Positions 1,458 to 57,342 of a DNA stretch of 64,000 nucleotides are shown in pieces. Source of the DNA: a virus; the IMG/VR virus record IMGVR_UViG_3300048580_000994, positions 1-64,000 of that record. One strand, 5' to 3'. The notes below the pieces were generated by a model, which made no database searches, was not told the origin of the DNA, and saw only the letters and a list, made by a program, of their open reading frames with translations. Within the stretch, counting starts at the first letter, position 1; the number at the start of each line of letters is the position of its first letter. The position numbers and the translations under genes are program-made.

Positions 1458-3332
1458 ATGGTATCAAAGACAAAAAATTTGGAACAACAGTTTAAAAAAT
1501 TAGACGAGATATCACACGTCCTTCTCAGACCTGGGCGTTATATTGGTGCGGTCACACCACACACTGGAGATTATTATATTGTTGATGTAGAAAACCAAAA
1601 AATGGTAAAAGAAACCATTACATTTGTTCCTGCATTGATTAAAATTTTTGATGAAATCATTTCAAATTCTGTTGATTTTTCCAAAACACCAGATGGAAAA
1701 CATGTTACTACCATTAAAGTTAATATTGATAGGGATTCAGGTGAAATATCAATATTTGATGATGGAGGAATTATAGTCCAAAAGCATAAGGAGCACGACC
1801 AATATATACCAGAACTTGTATTTGAGTTGCGGGCTGGTTCCAATTTCAACGACGACGAGGACACAGAACTTACCGGACAAAATGGTGAAGGTGCAGCATT
1901 GACAGCTATTTTTTCAACATCCTTCAACGTTAAAACCTGTGATGGAAAGAATTCATTTGAACAAACCCATTTGGAAAACTCCAGACGCAAAACCACCCCA
2001 AGAGTGAAACCCCATGACAAAAAATTCACCAAAATCACTTTCACCCCTGATTATGAAAAATTTGGTTTGACGAAACTTGACGATGGGAACTATGCTAAAT
2101 TGGTCAAGAGAGTTTATGATGTTGCTGGCTGTAACACCTCATTGAAAGTTTTCTTTAACGACAAACAAATCAAAATCAAATCCTTTGAAGATTATGTTAA
2201 ATTTTATAAGGACGATTATGTTTATGCAGACAACGCTAAATGGAAAATCGCAGTAGCCCATTCAGATGACGGATTTAACCATATTTCATTTGTTAATGGT
2301 ACTGAAACTACAATTGGTGGTAACCATGTTAAATATATCACAGACCAAATTACAGTTAAACTTCGTGAATATTTCAAGAAAAAACACAAAGTTGATGTAA
2401 AACCAAATGAGATTTTGAACCATGTCCAGCTATTCATCGATGCATCAATCGTCAAGCCAAGATATTCATCCCAAACCAAAGAAGATTTGATAACAGAAAT
2501 CAAACAATTCGGGACAACGTTTGACGTTACAGATAGGTTCATCAATAAAATCATCCAAAGCACTATCATCCATTCAGTTCTTGATTGGGTTGAAACAAAA
2601 GCAGAAGCAGTAAACAGGGCTGAGTTGCGAAAATTGAATAAAGACGTTGATAAGACTAATCTTCGGAAAATCATCAAATTCTCAGATGCTGCGACGAAAA
2701 ACCGCAACGACGCCATTCTATTCATAACAGAGGGACAATCAGCCCAAGGAGCTATCAATTCAGCCAAAGACCCAAATACAATGGGTTCATATCCACTTAG
2801 GGGCAAACCAGTTAATGTTATGGCAACTGACAACAAGAAATTACTTGAAAACGAAGAGTTCAAAGAGTTATTATCAATCATTGGATTAAAGATCGGTGAA
2901 CCAGCCAAGAATATTCGTTTTGGAAAAATCGCATTCTGCGCTGACGCTGATCATGATGGGAGTGCAATTAATGGATTGTTGATAAATCTTTTTTATTCAT
3001 TTTGGCCAGATTTGTTTACAGAAGGACGAATGTACGTTTTCCGTACCCCAATCGTCAAAGTTACACAAAAGGGTATAGTAACTGCGTTCTATACAAACGA
3101 AGAATGGCAAGAATGGCAAGCAAGTAATACCAATTCAAAATTCACCTTTAAATATTATAAAGGTCTTGGTAGTTCCCTTGCACCTGAATTCAAAGAATAT
3201 TTTAAAAATATGGACAAACATTTGGTTCAAATAGTAAAAGACGATAAAGATAATACTACCTTGCGATTGATTTATAGTAAGGATGATGGTATGTCAAATA
3301 AACGCAAAGAATGGTTGGAGTTAATAGAATGA
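1458..3332 (+). CDS. 39: DNA topoisomerase II large subunit (T4 gp39-like)
   Basis: The 624-aa protein is the ATPase and TOPRIM subunit of a T4-type type II topoisomerase. The N-terminal GHKL ATPase has the N-box region EIISNSVDFS and the glycine motifs DDGG and GQNGEGA. The TOPRIM domain has EGQSAQGA and the metal motif DADHDG. In T4 this subunit is split into genes 39 and 60; here it is one frame, so there is no translational bypass. It relaxes DNA and supports origin firing with gp52. The ATG of the next gene overlaps its TGA, so the two are translationally coupled. Confidence 0.96.
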   Translation: MVSKTKNLEQQFKKLDEISHVLLRPGRYIGAVTPHTGDYYIVDVENQKMVKETITFVPALIKIFDEIISNSVDFSKTPDGKHVTTIKVNIDRDSGEISIFDDGGIIVQKHKEHDQYIPELVFELRAGSNFNDDEDTELTGQNGEGAALTAIFSTSFNVKTCDGKNSFEQTHLENSRRKTTPRVKPHDKKFTKITFTPDYEKFGLTKLDDGNYAKLVKRVYDVAGCNTSLKVFFNDKQIKIKSFEDYVKFYKDDYVYADNAKWKIAVAHSDDGFNHISFVNGTETTIGGNHVKYITDQITVKLREYFKKKHKVDVKPNEILNHVQLFIDASIVKPRYSSQTKEDLITEIKQFGTTFDVTDRFINKIIQSTIIHSVLDWVETKAEAVNRAELRKLNKDVDKTNLRKIIKFSDAATKNRNDAILFITEGQSAQGAINSAKDPNTMGSYPLRGKPVNVMATDNKKLLENEEFKELLSIIGLKIGEPAKNIRFGKIAFCADADHDGSAINGLLINLFYSFWPDLFTEGRMYVFRTPIVKVTQKGIVTAFYTNEEWQEWQASNTNSKFTFKYYKGLGSSLAPEFKEYFKNMDKHLVQIVKDDKDNTTLRLIYSKDDGMSNKRKEWLELIE

Positions 3333-4663
3333 CAATAATGAAAAAAACAATTACAGAATATTTAAATGACGAAGTGAGGGCATTCTCCACTTATGCCAAT
3401 GTTAGAACCATTCCATCTGTTGTTGACAGTTTCAAGCCGGGACAGCGTAAAGCCATCTATACCCTTCTTCGTCGTGGTGAATCTTCAGGTGAAGTCAAAG
3501 TGTCTTCATTGTCTGGTGAAGTTATTACCCATGCTGCGTATCACCATGGCAACGTATCATTGGAAAATACCATTATCACATTATCACAAAATTTTTCTGG
3601 GTCGAATAACTATAATCTTTTAGAACCAATTGGGCAATTTGGTACACGATTGAATAAAGACGCCTCTGCTGCTCGTTATATTTTCACCAAACTTTCAAAA
3701 TATTTTAGAATGTTTTATAAGAAAGAAGATGAATTGTTGCTTGTTCAAAAAGACGAAGATGGAGATTTGATTGAGCCAGAAAACTACTTCCCTATAGTTC
3801 CAACTGTTCTTTTAAATGGAGTATCAGGTGTGGGGACAGGTTTTGCCACGATGATTATGTCCTATAAAGCATCTGACGTTATTGATAACTGTGTGGCTGT
3901 ATTGAATGGTAAAAAACAAAAGTCATTAATACCATGGGTTAGAGATTTCACTGGTACTATCAATCGTGAACCATCTGGTAGTATTGTGATGACTGGTGTA
4001 CTAACAGTTACTGGTGTTTATAGTTTAAAAATAACAGAAATCCCAACAGATTATGATTTGGAGAGTTATAAAGGGGTTTTGAATAAATTAGAAGATGCAG
4101 GTGTTATTAGGGAATATGATGATTTGTCATCTGGTAATAGATTTGAATTTGTTGTAAAAATTAATAGGGAAGTATCACAGCTTCCAATGGATAAATTACT
4201 TGAAAAATTTAAACTTATTAGTAAATTTAGTGAAAACTACACTTTGTTTAATGAAAATAATAAAATCAAAGTATTCCAAAATCCAAATGAAATTGTTGAA
4301 TATTTTGTAAAATTGCGACTTATTAAATATGCAGAACGTATTGCAGCATTAATCAAATATAAAGAAGAAGACTTGGTTTGGAAAAATGAAAAAATAAAAT
4401 TCATTAAATATTGGTTAAAAAATTCCAATTCACTAACGAAATTGACTAAATCAGAATTGTATGATAATTTAAAAAATGCGGGGTTTATTTCGATTGATGA
4501 CTTGTTGGGTAATAAGATTTATAATTTGACTAAAGAAGAAGTTGATAAATTGGAAAATCAAATAATTGAAGTCACAAATGAGATTGTTGAATTGAAAAAT
4601 ACAAAACCAAATGAATTATATATAAAAGAATTACAAATACTAAAAAAAGAACTAAAAGAATAA
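3329..4663 (+). CDS. 52: DNA topoisomerase II medium subunit (T4 gp52-like)
   Basis: This is the GyrA/ParC-like cleavage subunit, about 444 aa against 442 in T4. The motif GQFGTRLNKDASAARYIF carries the catalytic tyrosine of the AARY signature, and GVSGVGTGFATMI is typical of type IIA enzymes. The C-terminus is a Lys/Glu-rich coiled segment. I place the start at the ATG overlapping the upstream stop codon; a longer frame begins upstream at 3311. Partner: the subunit at 1458-3332. Confidence 0.95.
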   Translation: MTIMKKTITEYLNDEVRAFSTYANVRTIPSVVDSFKPGQRKAIYTLLRRGESSGEVKVSSLSGEVITHAAYHHGNVSLENTIITLSQNFSGSNNYNLLEPIGQFGTRLNKDASAARYIFTKLSKYFRMFYKKEDELLLVQKDEDGDLIEPENYFPIVPTVLLNGVSGVGTGFATMIMSYKASDVIDNCVAVLNGKKQKSLIPWVRDFTGTINREPSGSIVMTGVLTVTGVYSLKITEIPTDYDLESYKGVLNKLEDAGVIREYDDLSSGNRFEFVVKINREVSQLPMDKLLEKFKLISKFSENYTLFNENNKIKVFQNPNEIVEYFVKLRLIKYAERIAALIKYKEEDLVWKNEKIKFIKYWLKNSNSLTKLTKSELYDNLKNAGFISIDDLLGNKIYNLTKEEVDKLENQIIEVTNEIVELKNTKPNELYIKELQILKKELKE

Positions 4664-13300: not shown

Positions 13301-13666
13301 ATGCGAAAAACAATTTTAATAATAGAAGATAATGATATAAACATGACATTATATACCTTGTTTTTGAGTAAAGCAGGTTATTCGGTTATTCAAAGCCCTA
13401 AAGGAAAAAATGGGTTGGATATGATCAAGGAATTTTTACCAGACTTAGTTCTTACAGATATTAATCTTCCTGATATATCTGGTATTGATATAATTAAAAA
13501 TATTAAAAGCGATTCAACGACCAATCATATACCAGTTGTGGCAATTTCTGCATTCAAAGATAAAGATGAAGAAGATGAGGTTAAAAATATCAGTGATGCA
13601 ACACTGAAAAAACCCACCACGAATGATGGGCTTTTAACAGTTGTTCGTGCATTTTTAACAGCATAA
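13301..13666 (+). CDS. stand-alone response-regulator receiver, DivK-like
   Basis: A 121-aa single receiver domain with no output domain. The acidic pair is E9/D10, the phospho-acceptor is D53 (LTDINLP), the switch Ser is S83 and the Lys is K104. D53 is also the phosphorylated residue of Caulobacter DivK. The blocks IIEDNDINM, IPVVAISAF and LKKP resemble DivK more closely than CheY. DivK-type receivers control the alphaproteobacterial cell cycle, so this may be a decoy or activator. Resemblance was judged by eye. Confidence 0.85.
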   Translation: MRKTILIIEDNDINMTLYTLFLSKAGYSVIQSPKGKNGLDMIKEFLPDLVLTDINLPDISGIDIIKNIKSDSTTNHIPVVAISAFKDKDEEDEVKNISDATLKKPTTNDGLLTVVRAFLTA

Positions 13667-41950: not shown

Positions 41951-42103
41951 AGGGCCGAATAAAATTGATTATCGGATAATAGAATTGTTAATGCAGTTTT
42001 TAGATGGTTCAAGCCCATCAATCAATCGCAAGATTGAAAAATTCAATTTTAAAACCTTGCCCTTTTGATTTTTTGTGATATGATGAATAAAAGGAGAATA
42101 ATA

Positions 42104-42337
42104 ATGGATGCAACATTAGACATACCACTTCAAGTTACAGTTCGTTTGGGTAAAACAAAAATGTCCATCAAACAACTTTTGAAAATGGGTAGGGGTGCTG
42201 TATTGGAATTGGATAATTTAGTCACAGACCCAATTGAACTATTAGTCAATGGAAAGGTTGTTGCATTGGGTGAAGTTGAAATTGTTGGTGATAATTATGG
42301 GATTAAGATAACTGAAGTTTTTGGGAAAACAGCTTGA
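42104..42337 (+). CDS. FliN-like flagellar switch (SpoA-domain) protein
   Basis: 77 aa covering essentially one SpoA domain. DIPLQVTVRLGKTKMSIKQL, then LELDNLVTDPIELLVNG, then GEVEIVGDNYGIKITEV match the conserved core of bacterial FliN throughout. FliN forms the base of the flagellar C-ring and binds CheY-P in many species. The N-terminal extension of host FliN is missing. A phage copy could poison the switch. RBS AAAGGAG. Confidence 0.88.
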   Translation: MDATLDIPLQVTVRLGKTKMSIKQLLKMGRGAVLELDNLVTDPIELLVNGKVVALGEVEIVGDNYGIKITEVFGKTA

Positions 42338-44953: not shown

Positions 44954-45070
44954 ATGATGATTATCACCAGTGGGGTCATTTTTTTGATTTGGCTTCTTAG
45001 CTTATTTTCCAGTAAAGCACCAAGTGGATTCATTTTCGTCATTTGGTTCTTTAGTCTTTTTTGTCTGTGA
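44954..45070 (+). CDS. small hydrophobic protein
   Basis: 38 aa, almost entirely two hydrophobic spans. RBS AGAAAGGA. Ends 5 nt before the lpxC ATG, so it is probably co-transcribed with lpxC. Confidence 0.6.
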   Translation: MMIITSGVIFLIWLLSLFSSKAPSGFIFVIWFFSLFCL

Positions 45071-45075
45071 ATCAA

Positions 45076-45903
45076 ATGAAACAAAAAACATTAACCAAAA
45101 CAATATCGTTCTCAGGTGTAGGACTTCACAATGGTAAACAGGTTAATGTTTTACTCTTACCAGCCCCACTAAACACCGGAATTATTTTTCAGCGAACAGA
45201 CGTTGGGGGAAATAATATCATCCCAGCCTTGTGGAACCTTGTCCACACAACCAACCTAAACACTTGTTTGAAAAATGACAACGACGTTACCATTTCCACA
45301 ATTGAACACTTGATGGCAGCATTATCAGCCTCTAACGTCACCAATTGTCATATCCAAGTCAACGGACCAGAAATTCCAATTTTGGATGGCTCTGCAGATA
45401 TTTTTTACCAGACAATCAAACCCGATACCACAGAACAAAAACTGAACCAAAAATCCATCAAGATTTTGAAACCAATAACCACCCAAACAGTGTCTTTGAT
45501 TCCGGCTGACGAATTTTCCATTGAACTTTTTATTGATTTCCCAGCCAAAATCATAGGGACACAATCATTCCACTATCGAGACAACTTCCCTGAAATCTCC
45601 CAAGCCAGAACCTTTGGGTTTGGGAACGAGATTGACTACCTTCGGAAAAATAACCTTGCCTTGGGTGGGAGTTTGGATAACGCTATCGTTGTGGCTAACG
45701 ATGGGGAAACGATTTTGAACGATGGTGGGCTGAAATACAATGATGAATTCGTCCGTCATAAAGTCATCGATGCTATCGGGGATTTGTATCTCGCTGGTTA
45801 CCCAATCATTGGTAAATTCATTGGGGTAGGTTCTGGACATTCAATGAATAACGCCCTATTGCGGGAACTTTTCAAAAACCAAGATTGTTGGGAGATGGTA
45901 TGA
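45076..45903 (+). CDS. lpxC: UDP-3-O-acyl-GlcNAc deacetylase
   Basis: A 275-aa LpxC, the committed step of lipid A synthesis: removal of acetate from UDP-3-O-acyl-GlcNAc. The catalytic set is complete: E77/H78 in STIEHL, H228 and D232 zinc ligands in RHKVIDAIGD, D236, and H255 in GSGHSMNN. GVGLHNGK and SLDNAIV motifs are also present. It lacks about 30 C-terminal residues of E. coli LpxC. The start aligns with bacterial LpxC. The stop overlaps the next ATG. Confidence 0.96.
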   Translation: MKQKTLTKTISFSGVGLHNGKQVNVLLLPAPLNTGIIFQRTDVGGNNIIPALWNLVHTTNLNTCLKNDNDVTISTIEHLMAALSASNVTNCHIQVNGPEIPILDGSADIFYQTIKPDTTEQKLNQKSIKILKPITTQTVSLIPADEFSIELFIDFPAKIIGTQSFHYRDNFPEISQARTFGFGNEIDYLRKNNLALGGSLDNAIVVANDGETILNDGGLKYNDEFVRHKVIDAIGDLYLAGYPIIGKFIGVGSGHSMNNALLRELFKNQDCWEMV

Positions 45904-46340
45904 AACCTGAAATAACATATTTTCCCAGTGGTCCAAAACATCAAGAAACTTGGTATTTGGATGATTATGACACTGTGCATCGTATTGGTGGACCTGCAAA
46001 TCAACAATGGTACACAAATGGGTTATTATTTAGCGAGGCATGGATGGAATATGGTTTGCTTCATCGTGTTGATGGACCTGCAATAAGATTTTGGTTTAGA
46101 AATGGGCAGTTGCGTTCGATTAGATGGGCTATCAATGGAAAAACACATCGTATTGGTGGTCCAGCATTTCAAACTTGGGATGAAAATTGGCAAAAACAAA
46201 AAGAACAATGGTGGGTGAATGACATTGAAAAAACCAATGAAATCCTTCAATGGATAGAAAAAGATAATATTGAGTTGGATGAAAATCACAGCATCGTCAA
46301 GAAGAACGATTTAATGATTTTTAAATTGAAATTTGGCTGA
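45900..46340 (+). CDS. repeat protein (HRxGGPA/W..NG type) with FKLKF tail
   Basis: 146 aa; three or four beta repeats with HRIGGPA, HRVDGPA and WYTNG/WFRNG units, then a helix and IFKLKFG. Translationally coupled to lpxC. Function unknown. Confidence 0.78.
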   Translation: MKPEITYFPSGPKHQETWYLDDYDTVHRIGGPANQQWYTNGLLFSEAWMEYGLLHRVDGPAIRFWFRNGQLRSIRWAINGKTHRIGGPAFQTWDENWQKQKEQWWVNDIEKTNEILQWIEKDNIELDENHSIVKKNDLMIFKLKFG

Positions 46341-55599: not shown

Positions 55600-57015
55600 A
55601 TGGATATTATTTTAAAAAAAGCCAGATTTATATCATTTTTTATTATTGCCAGTATAACGTTGGTAATAGTTATTAGTTTTTATTTCATGACCATGAATAA
55701 TATTGACCAAGATCGTTTGGTTAAGATGACTAATATTTATGGTCGAGGGGAAAGTGTTATAAAAGTATTAGATAGACATGTTCATAACTCAATCGAAGAT
55801 GTTTATTGGGCATTGCGAGTATATGAAAATAAATGGGTTGACACACCAGATGATGAATTTGTTGTTTGGGTTAGTAAGAATACTGTGAACACTTTTTATG
55901 CATCTAAGATAATAATCAATAGTGTTAGTGGTGTCTCTTATAGATATGAAGACAATAAAATAACCAAACAAAAAAGTGATAATAATTTTAATCAAAGTAG
56001 TATTATTGTTGGAACTAATTTGGTTATGGAAAATTCAAATGATGGGTTGGAAATAATTTTTAAATATACTATTAAGGGGAAGGGTGTTATTAATATTCAT
56101 GTACCACAAAATTATTTGGTTGATATTTTTTCAAATCTTAGGCATCATTGGGAAATTTTGATAATAGATGTTACAAATAATATATATTCTGATTTAGTTA
56201 ATGAAATTGATAAATCAATTTCTTCGTTTGATAAAAATAAAATATTAAATGATTATAAATGTAATACCAAACTGCTAATAAAAAATGAAAATGATGATTT
56301 TTCGTTTCTTGGTAATTGTTATAAATCTGTTTATTATAATTTATATTATGTGGTATTATATGATTATACTTATGAAATGTCTGGCTTTGTTGATAGAAGT
56401 AAGAAAACATTATCATCATTTTCATTGTTTGTTTTTATGATATTATTAATTGGTATAGCGTTATTAATAGTTTCTGATAAACAAATTAGAGTATATGTTG
56501 AGTTAAAACAAATGAAAGACGAGTTTGAGGAATTGTCGAGTATTGATGAATTAACTTCTGTTACCAATCGCAGGGCTGTTATGAAAAGGTTGGTTCAAGA
56601 AATGACCAGAATGTCTCGTCATGGTCGCCCACTATCCATTATGTCATTTGATATAGATTTTTTCAAAAAAATCAATGATACTTATGGGCATAATGTTGGA
56701 GATATAGTTTTGAAGAATTTGGTGATTGAGGTACAAAAATGCCTTCGTCAAACAGATTTGCTTGGTAGAATGGGTGGTGAAGAATTTTTGATATTGTTGG
56801 GCGATACCAAATTAGATGGTGCTACTATATTGGCTGAACGTATTCGTGAAACTATACAAAACATACAGATAGTTAAAGACATTAACATCACCATTAGTGT
56901 TGGTGTTGGTGAATTTAAAAAGGGAGAGATTACCAGTCAATTATTAGCACGTGTTGATTTGGCATTATATAGAGCTAAAAATGAGGGAAGAAATAAGGTT
57001 TGTATATCCATTTAA
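55600..57015 (+). CDS. membrane diguanylate cyclase (GGDEF)
   Basis: 471 aa. One membrane span at about 10-32, a periplasmic sensor-like region, a second span at about 277-297, then a GGDEF domain. The active site is GGEEF (392-396). The inhibitory I-site RQTD lies exactly five residues before it (383-386). Metal/substrate motif FDIDFFKKINDTYGH is intact. It should make c-di-GMP at the inner membrane and be product-inhibited. A truncated duplicate of its C-terminus lies at 57220-57342. Confidence 0.94.
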   Translation: MDIILKKARFISFFIIASITLVIVISFYFMTMNNIDQDRLVKMTNIYGRGESVIKVLDRHVHNSIEDVYWALRVYENKWVDTPDDEFVVWVSKNTVNTFYASKIIINSVSGVSYRYEDNKITKQKSDNNFNQSSIIVGTNLVMENSNDGLEIIFKYTIKGKGVINIHVPQNYLVDIFSNLRHHWEILIIDVTNNIYSDLVNEIDKSISSFDKNKILNDYKCNTKLLIKNENDDFSFLGNCYKSVYYNLYYVVLYDYTYEMSGFVDRSKKTLSSFSLFVFMILLIGIALLIVSDKQIRVYVELKQMKDEFEELSSIDELTSVTNRRAVMKRLVQEMTRMSRHGRPLSIMSFDIDFFKKINDTYGHNVGDIVLKNLVIEVQKCLRQTDLLGRMGGEEFLILLGDTKLDGATILAERIRETIQNIQIVKDINITISVGVGEFKKGEITSQLLARVDLALYRAKNEGRNKVCISI

Positions 57016-57067: not shown

Positions 57068-57193
57068 ATGACACACAAAAATTTGTTACATAAAATAATA
57101 TCATGGGTTGCTGAAAAATTTATGTCAAGGGACCATATTTTTTATCTTATTGAAGAACTTCAAATAATATCCTTGTCCAAAAGAATTTCTTGA
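57068..57193 (+). CDS. small hypothetical protein
   Basis: 41 aa; RBS AAAGGAGA is strong. Helical. Unknown. Confidence 0.6.
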   Translation: MTHKNLLHKIISWVAEKFMSRDHIFYLIEELQIISLSKRIS

Positions 57194-57219
57194 TTGCAAC
57201 GCACAATAAATATGTTACA

Positions 57220-57342
57220 ATGTGGCTTATTTTTGGGGAATTTAAAAAGGGAGAGTCTACCAGTCAATTATTAGAACGTATTGATTTGGTATTATATAAA
57301 GCAAAGAATGATGGGCGTAATAGGGTGTGTAAATCTGTTTGA
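57220..57342 (+). pseudogene. truncated duplicate of GGDEF C-terminus
   Basis: 40 codons reading GEFKKGESTSQLLERIDL then YKAKNDGRNRVCKSV, almost the same as the last 36 residues of the cyclase at 55600. The GGEEF site is absent. Remnant of a tandem duplication. Confidence 0.8.

Follow-up and report, generated by a model that had tools for sequence, protein, structure and literature searches.

Positions 42104 to 42337 (plus strand) of the viral record IMGVR_UViG_3300048580_000994 encode a SpoA domain of the FliN type and nothing more. The protein has 77 amino acids (aa) and is carried by a phage; the window analysed here is the stretch of 64,000 nucleotides from position 1 of the record, which itself measures 82,429 bases and is a fragment of a large T4-like phage. 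We tentatively propose that this FliN-type SpoA core acts on the C-ring or the export platform of the host flagellum and so changes motility during infection, a reading in which our confidence falls a little short of even.

A FliN-type SpoA core in a T4-like phage

The FliMN_C family (Pfam PF01052) matches residues 5-72 of the 77 with an E value of 8e-24 (83.8 bits against a cut-off of 23.8), and this gene is the only one in the 82,429-base record to match the family. The NCBIfam model for FliN (TIGR02480) scores the protein at 91.8 bits, above its cut-off of 84.05, whereas the SctQ model (TIGR02551) gives 49.4 bits, below its cut-off of 100.8. Likewise, FliN of T. maritima (5e-22) and FliN of Salmonella were the best matches in a sequence search of the PDB, with a range of 5e-22 to 1e-19, whereas the type III proteins HrcQb, YscQ-C and SpaO were found at 7e-4 to 0.06. 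The AlphaFold2 model, which was built from an alignment of 39 rows (the window protein, 35 bacterial rows and three phage rows), reached a mean predicted local distance difference test score of 78.6 and a predicted template modelling (TM) score of 0.52. When this model was compared with the PDB using Foldseek, ranks 1-17 were flagellar C-ring chains (FliN, FliY) with TM scores of 0.68-0.76, and HrcQb, YscQ and Spa33 ranked below them. The C-terminal proteins of the SctQ type (HrcQb, YscQ-C, Spa33/SpaO) resemble the phage protein in consisting of SpoA only and in sharing the same fold, but they are 16-27% identical to it in the fold search and score far more weakly; no type III secretion genes were seen among the scanned proteins of the record. 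A PHROGs search with the protein gave no match, and a fold search of BFVD with its model gave no match with an E value of 0.001 or below. An earlier note, made from the letters of the DNA alone, had claimed a FliN-like protein reduced to the SpoA core in a phage, and this is confirmed by Pfam, NCBIfam, the PDB search and the fold, together with the T4-type genes described next; the profile and structure searches favour FliN over the alternative that the same note had set against it, namely SctQ or no SpoA domain at all.

The record is a phage by its T4-type topoisomerase II subunits and its 40 tRNA genes. The subunits lie at 1458-4663 (E 3.9e-172 and 3.9e-136), and for the large subunit, identity is 50% with its counterpart in Xanthomonas phage X1 and about 44.5% with the counterparts in two uncultured phages (635 and 642 kb). 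The predicted tRNA genes extend from 15940 to 51625; 33 lie in the stretch from 15.9 to 31.5 kb, and several isoacceptors are doubled. No head or packaging genes were seen among the scanned proteins of the record, which is itself a fragment.

The reading frame begins with an ATG at 42104 and is preceded by a ribosome-binding site, AGGAG at 42092..42096 (plus strand), that was graded strong. An alternative TTG start would give 90 aa, but 77 aa is the likely product, because the AGGAG lies directly 5' of the ATG. A weak promoter-like site occurs at 42057..42084 on the same strand (TTGCCC, 16 nucleotides, and TG before TATGAT), and as the region holds 11 such sites against 8.4 expected, it is a hint at most. 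The motif TTGTGATATGAT is repeated 5' of genes, with 28 matches against 17.7 expected, and 3 of 100 shuffles were equally high. The G+C content at third codon positions of the SpoA gene (0.244) is inside the range of the other measured genes. Its neighbours are a GNAT gene and small phage open reading frames (ORFs), with LpxC further along, and do not form a flagellar operon.

Conserved residues, short relatives and origin

The 39-row alignment contains 11 invariant columns, all of which are kept by the window protein. The FliH patch of FliN comprises L68, A93, V111, V113 and Y118 in the available text of PMC7505661, whereas V111, V112 and V113 are named in that of PMC6248999. The counterparts of the former set in the phage protein (ungapped, offset 53) are L15, V40, V58, I60 and Y65, all of them hydrophobic. 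At the position of V112 of E. coli FliN, the phage protein has a glutamate, E59, whereas valine occupies this column in at least 90% of the 39 rows; since this residue replaces a near-constant valine, one surface of the protein may differ. We rejected a loss of the FliH patch through E59, as the patch in the available text of PMC7505661 is made of residues 68, 93, 111, 113 and 118, but some effect is possible, since PMC6248999 includes V112. Compared with FliN, the phage protein is alike in its SpoA domain, its fold, its invariant residues and its FliH-patch residues, and unlike in the missing N-terminal region, in the glutamate at the V112 position, in being phage-borne and in lying outside a flagellar operon. 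The region that precedes the SpoA domain in FliN is absent, and therefore we use the label 'FliN-type' rather than FliN.

The nearest bacterial relatives are longer. Among the best 80 of at least 551 relatives, one cut frame was excluded, and the remaining 79 complete open frames were all at least 91 aa long, with at least nine residues ahead of the point equivalent to Met1 of the phage protein. Short forms do occur on bacterial chromosomes: in the one class searched, 50 of 76 alphaproteobacterial genomes had a FliMN_C match, many had two or three, and a second short SpoA gene is often present. Twenty short-frame loci were taken and 18 were aligned to the window protein; the proteins at 16 of these 18 were of 75-100 aa, with 36-50% identity to the window protein. 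At the seven short-paralogue loci whose neighbours were named by eye, a LipB-like gene was found beside the second short SpoA paralogue in two (L223 and L227) and a FliP-like gene in one. The SpoA-only form is thus no mark of a phage, given the SpoA-only proteins of 75-100 aa on alphaproteobacterial chromosomes, and the idea that it is phage-specific was rejected. The earlier note had built on the missing N-terminal part, which is indeed missing from the 77-aa protein; its shortness by itself is no argument for a jamming device, because the short alphaproteobacterial paralogues share it. Capping or mis-assembly of the C-ring by the protein, which the note also put forward, is possible.

In a tree of 89 rows the window protein fell on the alphaproteobacterial side, with a Shimodaira-Hasegawa-like approximate likelihood ratio test support of 87. 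In a tree of 74 rows its long branch stood close to FliN of spirochaetes and melainabacteria, outside the clade of the short paralogues that the protein resembles in consisting of SpoA only and in length (about 75-100 aa). In the approximately unbiased (AU) test of the 74-row tree, neither a grouping with the short paralogues (p-AU 0.195) nor one with alphaproteobacterial FliN (p-AU 0.123) was rejected. The trees rest on 76-78 columns and leave room for more than one origin of the gene.

Candidate partners and flagellar genes of other large phages

Two further genes of the window may encode partners of the SpoA core. A membrane diguanylate cyclase is encoded at 55600..57015 (plus strand; Pfam GGDEF 4.8e-43), with its GGEEF and RxxD motifs intact in the translation, and is a candidate partner in motility control. 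Directly 3' of it, at 57187-57324 on the same strand, lies a second GGDEF C-terminal piece that resembles a duplicated remnant. A single receiver domain of 121 aa is encoded at 13301..13666 (plus strand; PF00072 5.1e-21), is closest to DivK in the PDB (9.1e-23, against 1.3e-13 for CheY), and is a candidate partner in the control of the host cell cycle or motility. The lipid A deacetylase LpxC lies at 45061-45903 (plus strand; Pfam 6.8e-89); among the bacterial relatives seen, the best are about 50% identical, and 7 of 50,697 phage records match it. Repeat-rich proteins with units of the HRxxGPA type and similar C-terminal ends are encoded at 45885-46340 and, in a second piece of the record, at L005:15096-15794, and a protein with a BLUF blue-light sensor domain (1.3e-25) is encoded beyond the window at 74488-74922 of the contig (L005:10488-10922).

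Two alignment scans of the IMG/VR viral_contigs for SpoA gave three loci, and then 10 loci on nine contigs, the first three included. Two of the nine (L188 and L191) were rejected as phage carriers, as their SpoA genes lie outside the integrase and next to a tRNA-Leu gene and hence belong to the bacterial flank of a prophage. Among the other seven, G002 (IMGVR_UViG_3300024239_000011; 543,035 bases) encodes FliM, FliN and a further SpoA protein. Its FliM (68291-69661; L045:8291-9661) has an N-terminal stretch of the PopZ family (8.5e-7), as though it were directed to the cell pole. The same contig has adjacent flagellin, FlbT and FlaF genes (358888-360504; L055:1084-1923, L071:18888-19653), two CheY proteins (2.9e-39 and 4.5e-32), and PAS-GGDEF and GGDEF-EAL proteins; its phage nature is indicated by a portal protein (2.5e-116), a baseplate wedge, a DNA polymerase and a tail sheath. 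SpoVR and DUF444 genes are also adjacent on G002 (L076:10701-13707). G003 (IMGVR_UViG_3300010167_000010; 329,018 bases) encodes FliG, a FliM-FliN fusion and a second SpoA protein, along with a diguanylate cyclase, flagellin, a chemoreceptor and a hybrid kinase, and as phage evidence a DNA polymerase (2.7e-46), a baseplate wedge (7e-17) and a weak portal match. G001 (IMGVR_UViG_3300005200_000008; 89,930 bases) encodes FliM, FliN and a FliG with a hydrophobic N-terminal stretch (seen by eye), and its phage evidence comprises a clamp loader, an SbcC-like protein and weak portal and terminase matches. Four contigs were taken as phage on the IMG/VR classification alone: L184 (305,833 bases; part of FliM and an overlapping SpoA ORF), L185 (32,875 bases) and L190 (178,053 bases), each with a FliM-FliN fusion, and L189 (39,306 bases), with a FliM-FliN fusion and a FliG that lacks its N-terminal domain. 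We rejected phrog_2 as a terminase marker because it matched 11 of 14 control genomes, and phrog_77 is no proof of phage status for L184, L185 or L163, a relative of G003, as it matched all 14.

Chimeric assembly of G003 was checked in two comparisons. On L164, from another IMG/VR data set, 17 of 17 compared ORFs match G003 at 99-100%, and since this contig ends within the flagellin gene, the left junction in G003 has been seen twice. On L163, 18 of 29 listed ORFs match G003 at 32-68%, and its own flagellin is 68% identical. The proportion of nonsynonymous differences between the two flagellins (0.229) against that of synonymous differences (0.739; synonymous divergence near saturation) indicates purifying selection. 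In the 89-row tree the SpoA domains of G001 and G003 group with Spirochaetia and FliN of G002 with Alphaproteobacteria, and therefore the phage C-ring genes were drawn from different hosts. GGDEF proteins were present in three of the four SpoA records tested, and among 50,697 phage records, 104 had a match at 1e-5 to the cyclase of the window; as collection, method and genome size differ between the two figures, they are a hint only.

A viral_contigs scan with the window protein alone gave 11 pattern matches, none of them a relative, and one with a single topoisomerase subunit gave no match. In the 'phages' collection, 10 of 50,697 records had a SpoA match, and none was counted as a phage SpoA gene: murJ, fadM, fabI and similar genes surround the match in Microcystis phage MaAM05, MT835480 looks, by eye, like the flagellar operon of a bacterium, OR851760 is an unverified contig of 1.5 kb, and the seven Listeria phage LM records are unannotated, with 28-31% identity. 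Xanthomonas phage X1 and the phages of 635 and 642 kb are absent from these 10. In the literature searched, phage C-ring genes were nowhere described, most subscription papers being beyond reach. The available text of PMC8290583 describes motA/motB in a phage vOTU from glacier ice, which is thus, like the window phage, a case of flagellar motor genes in a phage genome; its genes are of the stator, whereas the gene of the window is of the rotor, and MotA was unmatched in the four records tested here. The single gene is a variant of FliN-type proteins and of phage motility genes, and the surprise is the wider set for rotor, filament and chemotaxis.

Possible roles in host motility

FliN and the C-terminal domain of FliM (FliM_C) pair mutually, and each with itself, via the SpoA domain (available text of PMC7505661). 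Given this pairing and the intact FliH patch, the phage SpoA core should be able to join FliM_C/FliN or to hold FliH. In the mechanism that we envisage, it would dimerise with itself, with host FliN or with the C-terminal domain of FliM, and would become part of the C-ring of the host, or of the pool of FliN that docks the export ATPase FliH-FliI. The motility of the infected cell would then be changed, and most likely lowered, together with the phage diguanylate cyclase; lowered motility is our first guess because this cyclase is found in the same phage. The C-ring target that the earlier note had put forward is plausible, as the FliH-patch residues are kept and C-ring genes are present in other large phages. 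Several points weigh against this mechanism. Lowering of motility by cyclic di-guanosine monophosphate (c-di-GMP) is widespread among bacteria, though not universal; E59 departs from the near-constant valine; and the short alphaproteobacterial SpoA-only paralogues may serve something besides motor switching. No FliM or FliG was found in the record, though this is a fragment. Searches of the 82 kb for flagellin, chemoreceptor and MotA were negative, and Pfam scans of its ORFs (one of them covering 79 ORFs, with 25 of 34 families listed) revealed no further flagellar gene. As to the host, the relatives of the FliN-type protein and of LpxC are mostly Pseudomonadota, which points to a phylum but not to a class.

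The flagellar gene sets of the other phages could equally keep the motor working, and the 77-aa protein may likewise be an additional FliN by which the C-ring is maintained or retuned, so that infected cells swim on and spread the phage. The three-domain FliG, the flagellin with FlbT and FlaF, the two CheY proteins and the chemoreceptor are seemingly working parts, the flagellin of G003 and L163 is under purifying selection, and all seven phage FliM-type proteins seen have kept an N-terminal peptide like LSQxEIDxLL, which we take to be the CheY-P-binding (phosphorylated CheY) peptide of FliM. Support of motility is also the reading given to the glacier-ice phage by its authors in the available text of PMC8290583. 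We nevertheless consider such a role unlikely for the 77-aa protein, as the window phage shows the SpoA core only, with a diguanylate cyclase, and some phage parts are incomplete, such as FliG of L189. It is improbable that the gene was captured without any flagellar role, with the SpoA dimer serving as a scaffold in a phage complex or the gene being a passenger. The long branch of the protein, the lack of any other flagellar gene found in 82 kb and the short alphaproteobacterial paralogues, which at the seven loci are not plainly in flagellar operons, would be in line with this, but the protein keeps every invariant residue as well as the FliH patch, the ribosome-binding site is good, and the C-ring genes of the other phages stand in flagellar company.

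The kept patch, the missing N-terminal extension, the small size of the gene and its separate ribosome-binding site would also suit a soluble SpoA dimer that draws FliH-FliI off the C-ring, halts flagellar export and spares energy for the phage. We judge this quite improbable, since the usual place of FliN is the ring, no sign of a soluble excess was seen, and E59 adjoins the patch residues. The earlier note had also suggested binding of CheY-P and a block on flagellotropic phages. CheY-P docks mainly at the N-terminus of FliM, which the 77-aa protein lacks, and so binding is unlikely; the record holds no pointer to superinfection exclusion. Although evidence for the association of a CheY fusion with FliN of E. 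coli is cited in the available text of PMC7355467, we find CheY-P binding or superinfection blocking by this protein hardly credible.

Flagellar parts are present in several large phages, which suggests a take-over of host swimming by these viruses. A wider proposal, which we regard as doubtful, is that large phages carry a take-over module of rotor proteins (FliG/FliM/FliN), flagellin/FlbT/FlaF, CheY/chemoreceptor and c-di-GMP enzymes, built repeatedly from different hosts, and that the SpoA core, the cyclase and the DivK-like receiver of the window drive an alphaproteobacterial host out of swimming and into replication without motility, much as in the swarmer-to-stalked transition of Caulobacter. 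FlbT has a role in flagellin control, and DivK-PleD-CtrA is tied to the swarmer-to-stalked switch. A non-motile, replicating host would, if this is true, suit the replication of phage DNA. The relations between phages and host swimming are known mainly through flagella as receptors; genes for the rotor, the filament and chemotaxis, carried by the phages themselves, would turn motility into something that is steered by the phage during infection. Small proteins that act on the C-ring would follow and would be open to test, with the 77-aa core as an easy start.
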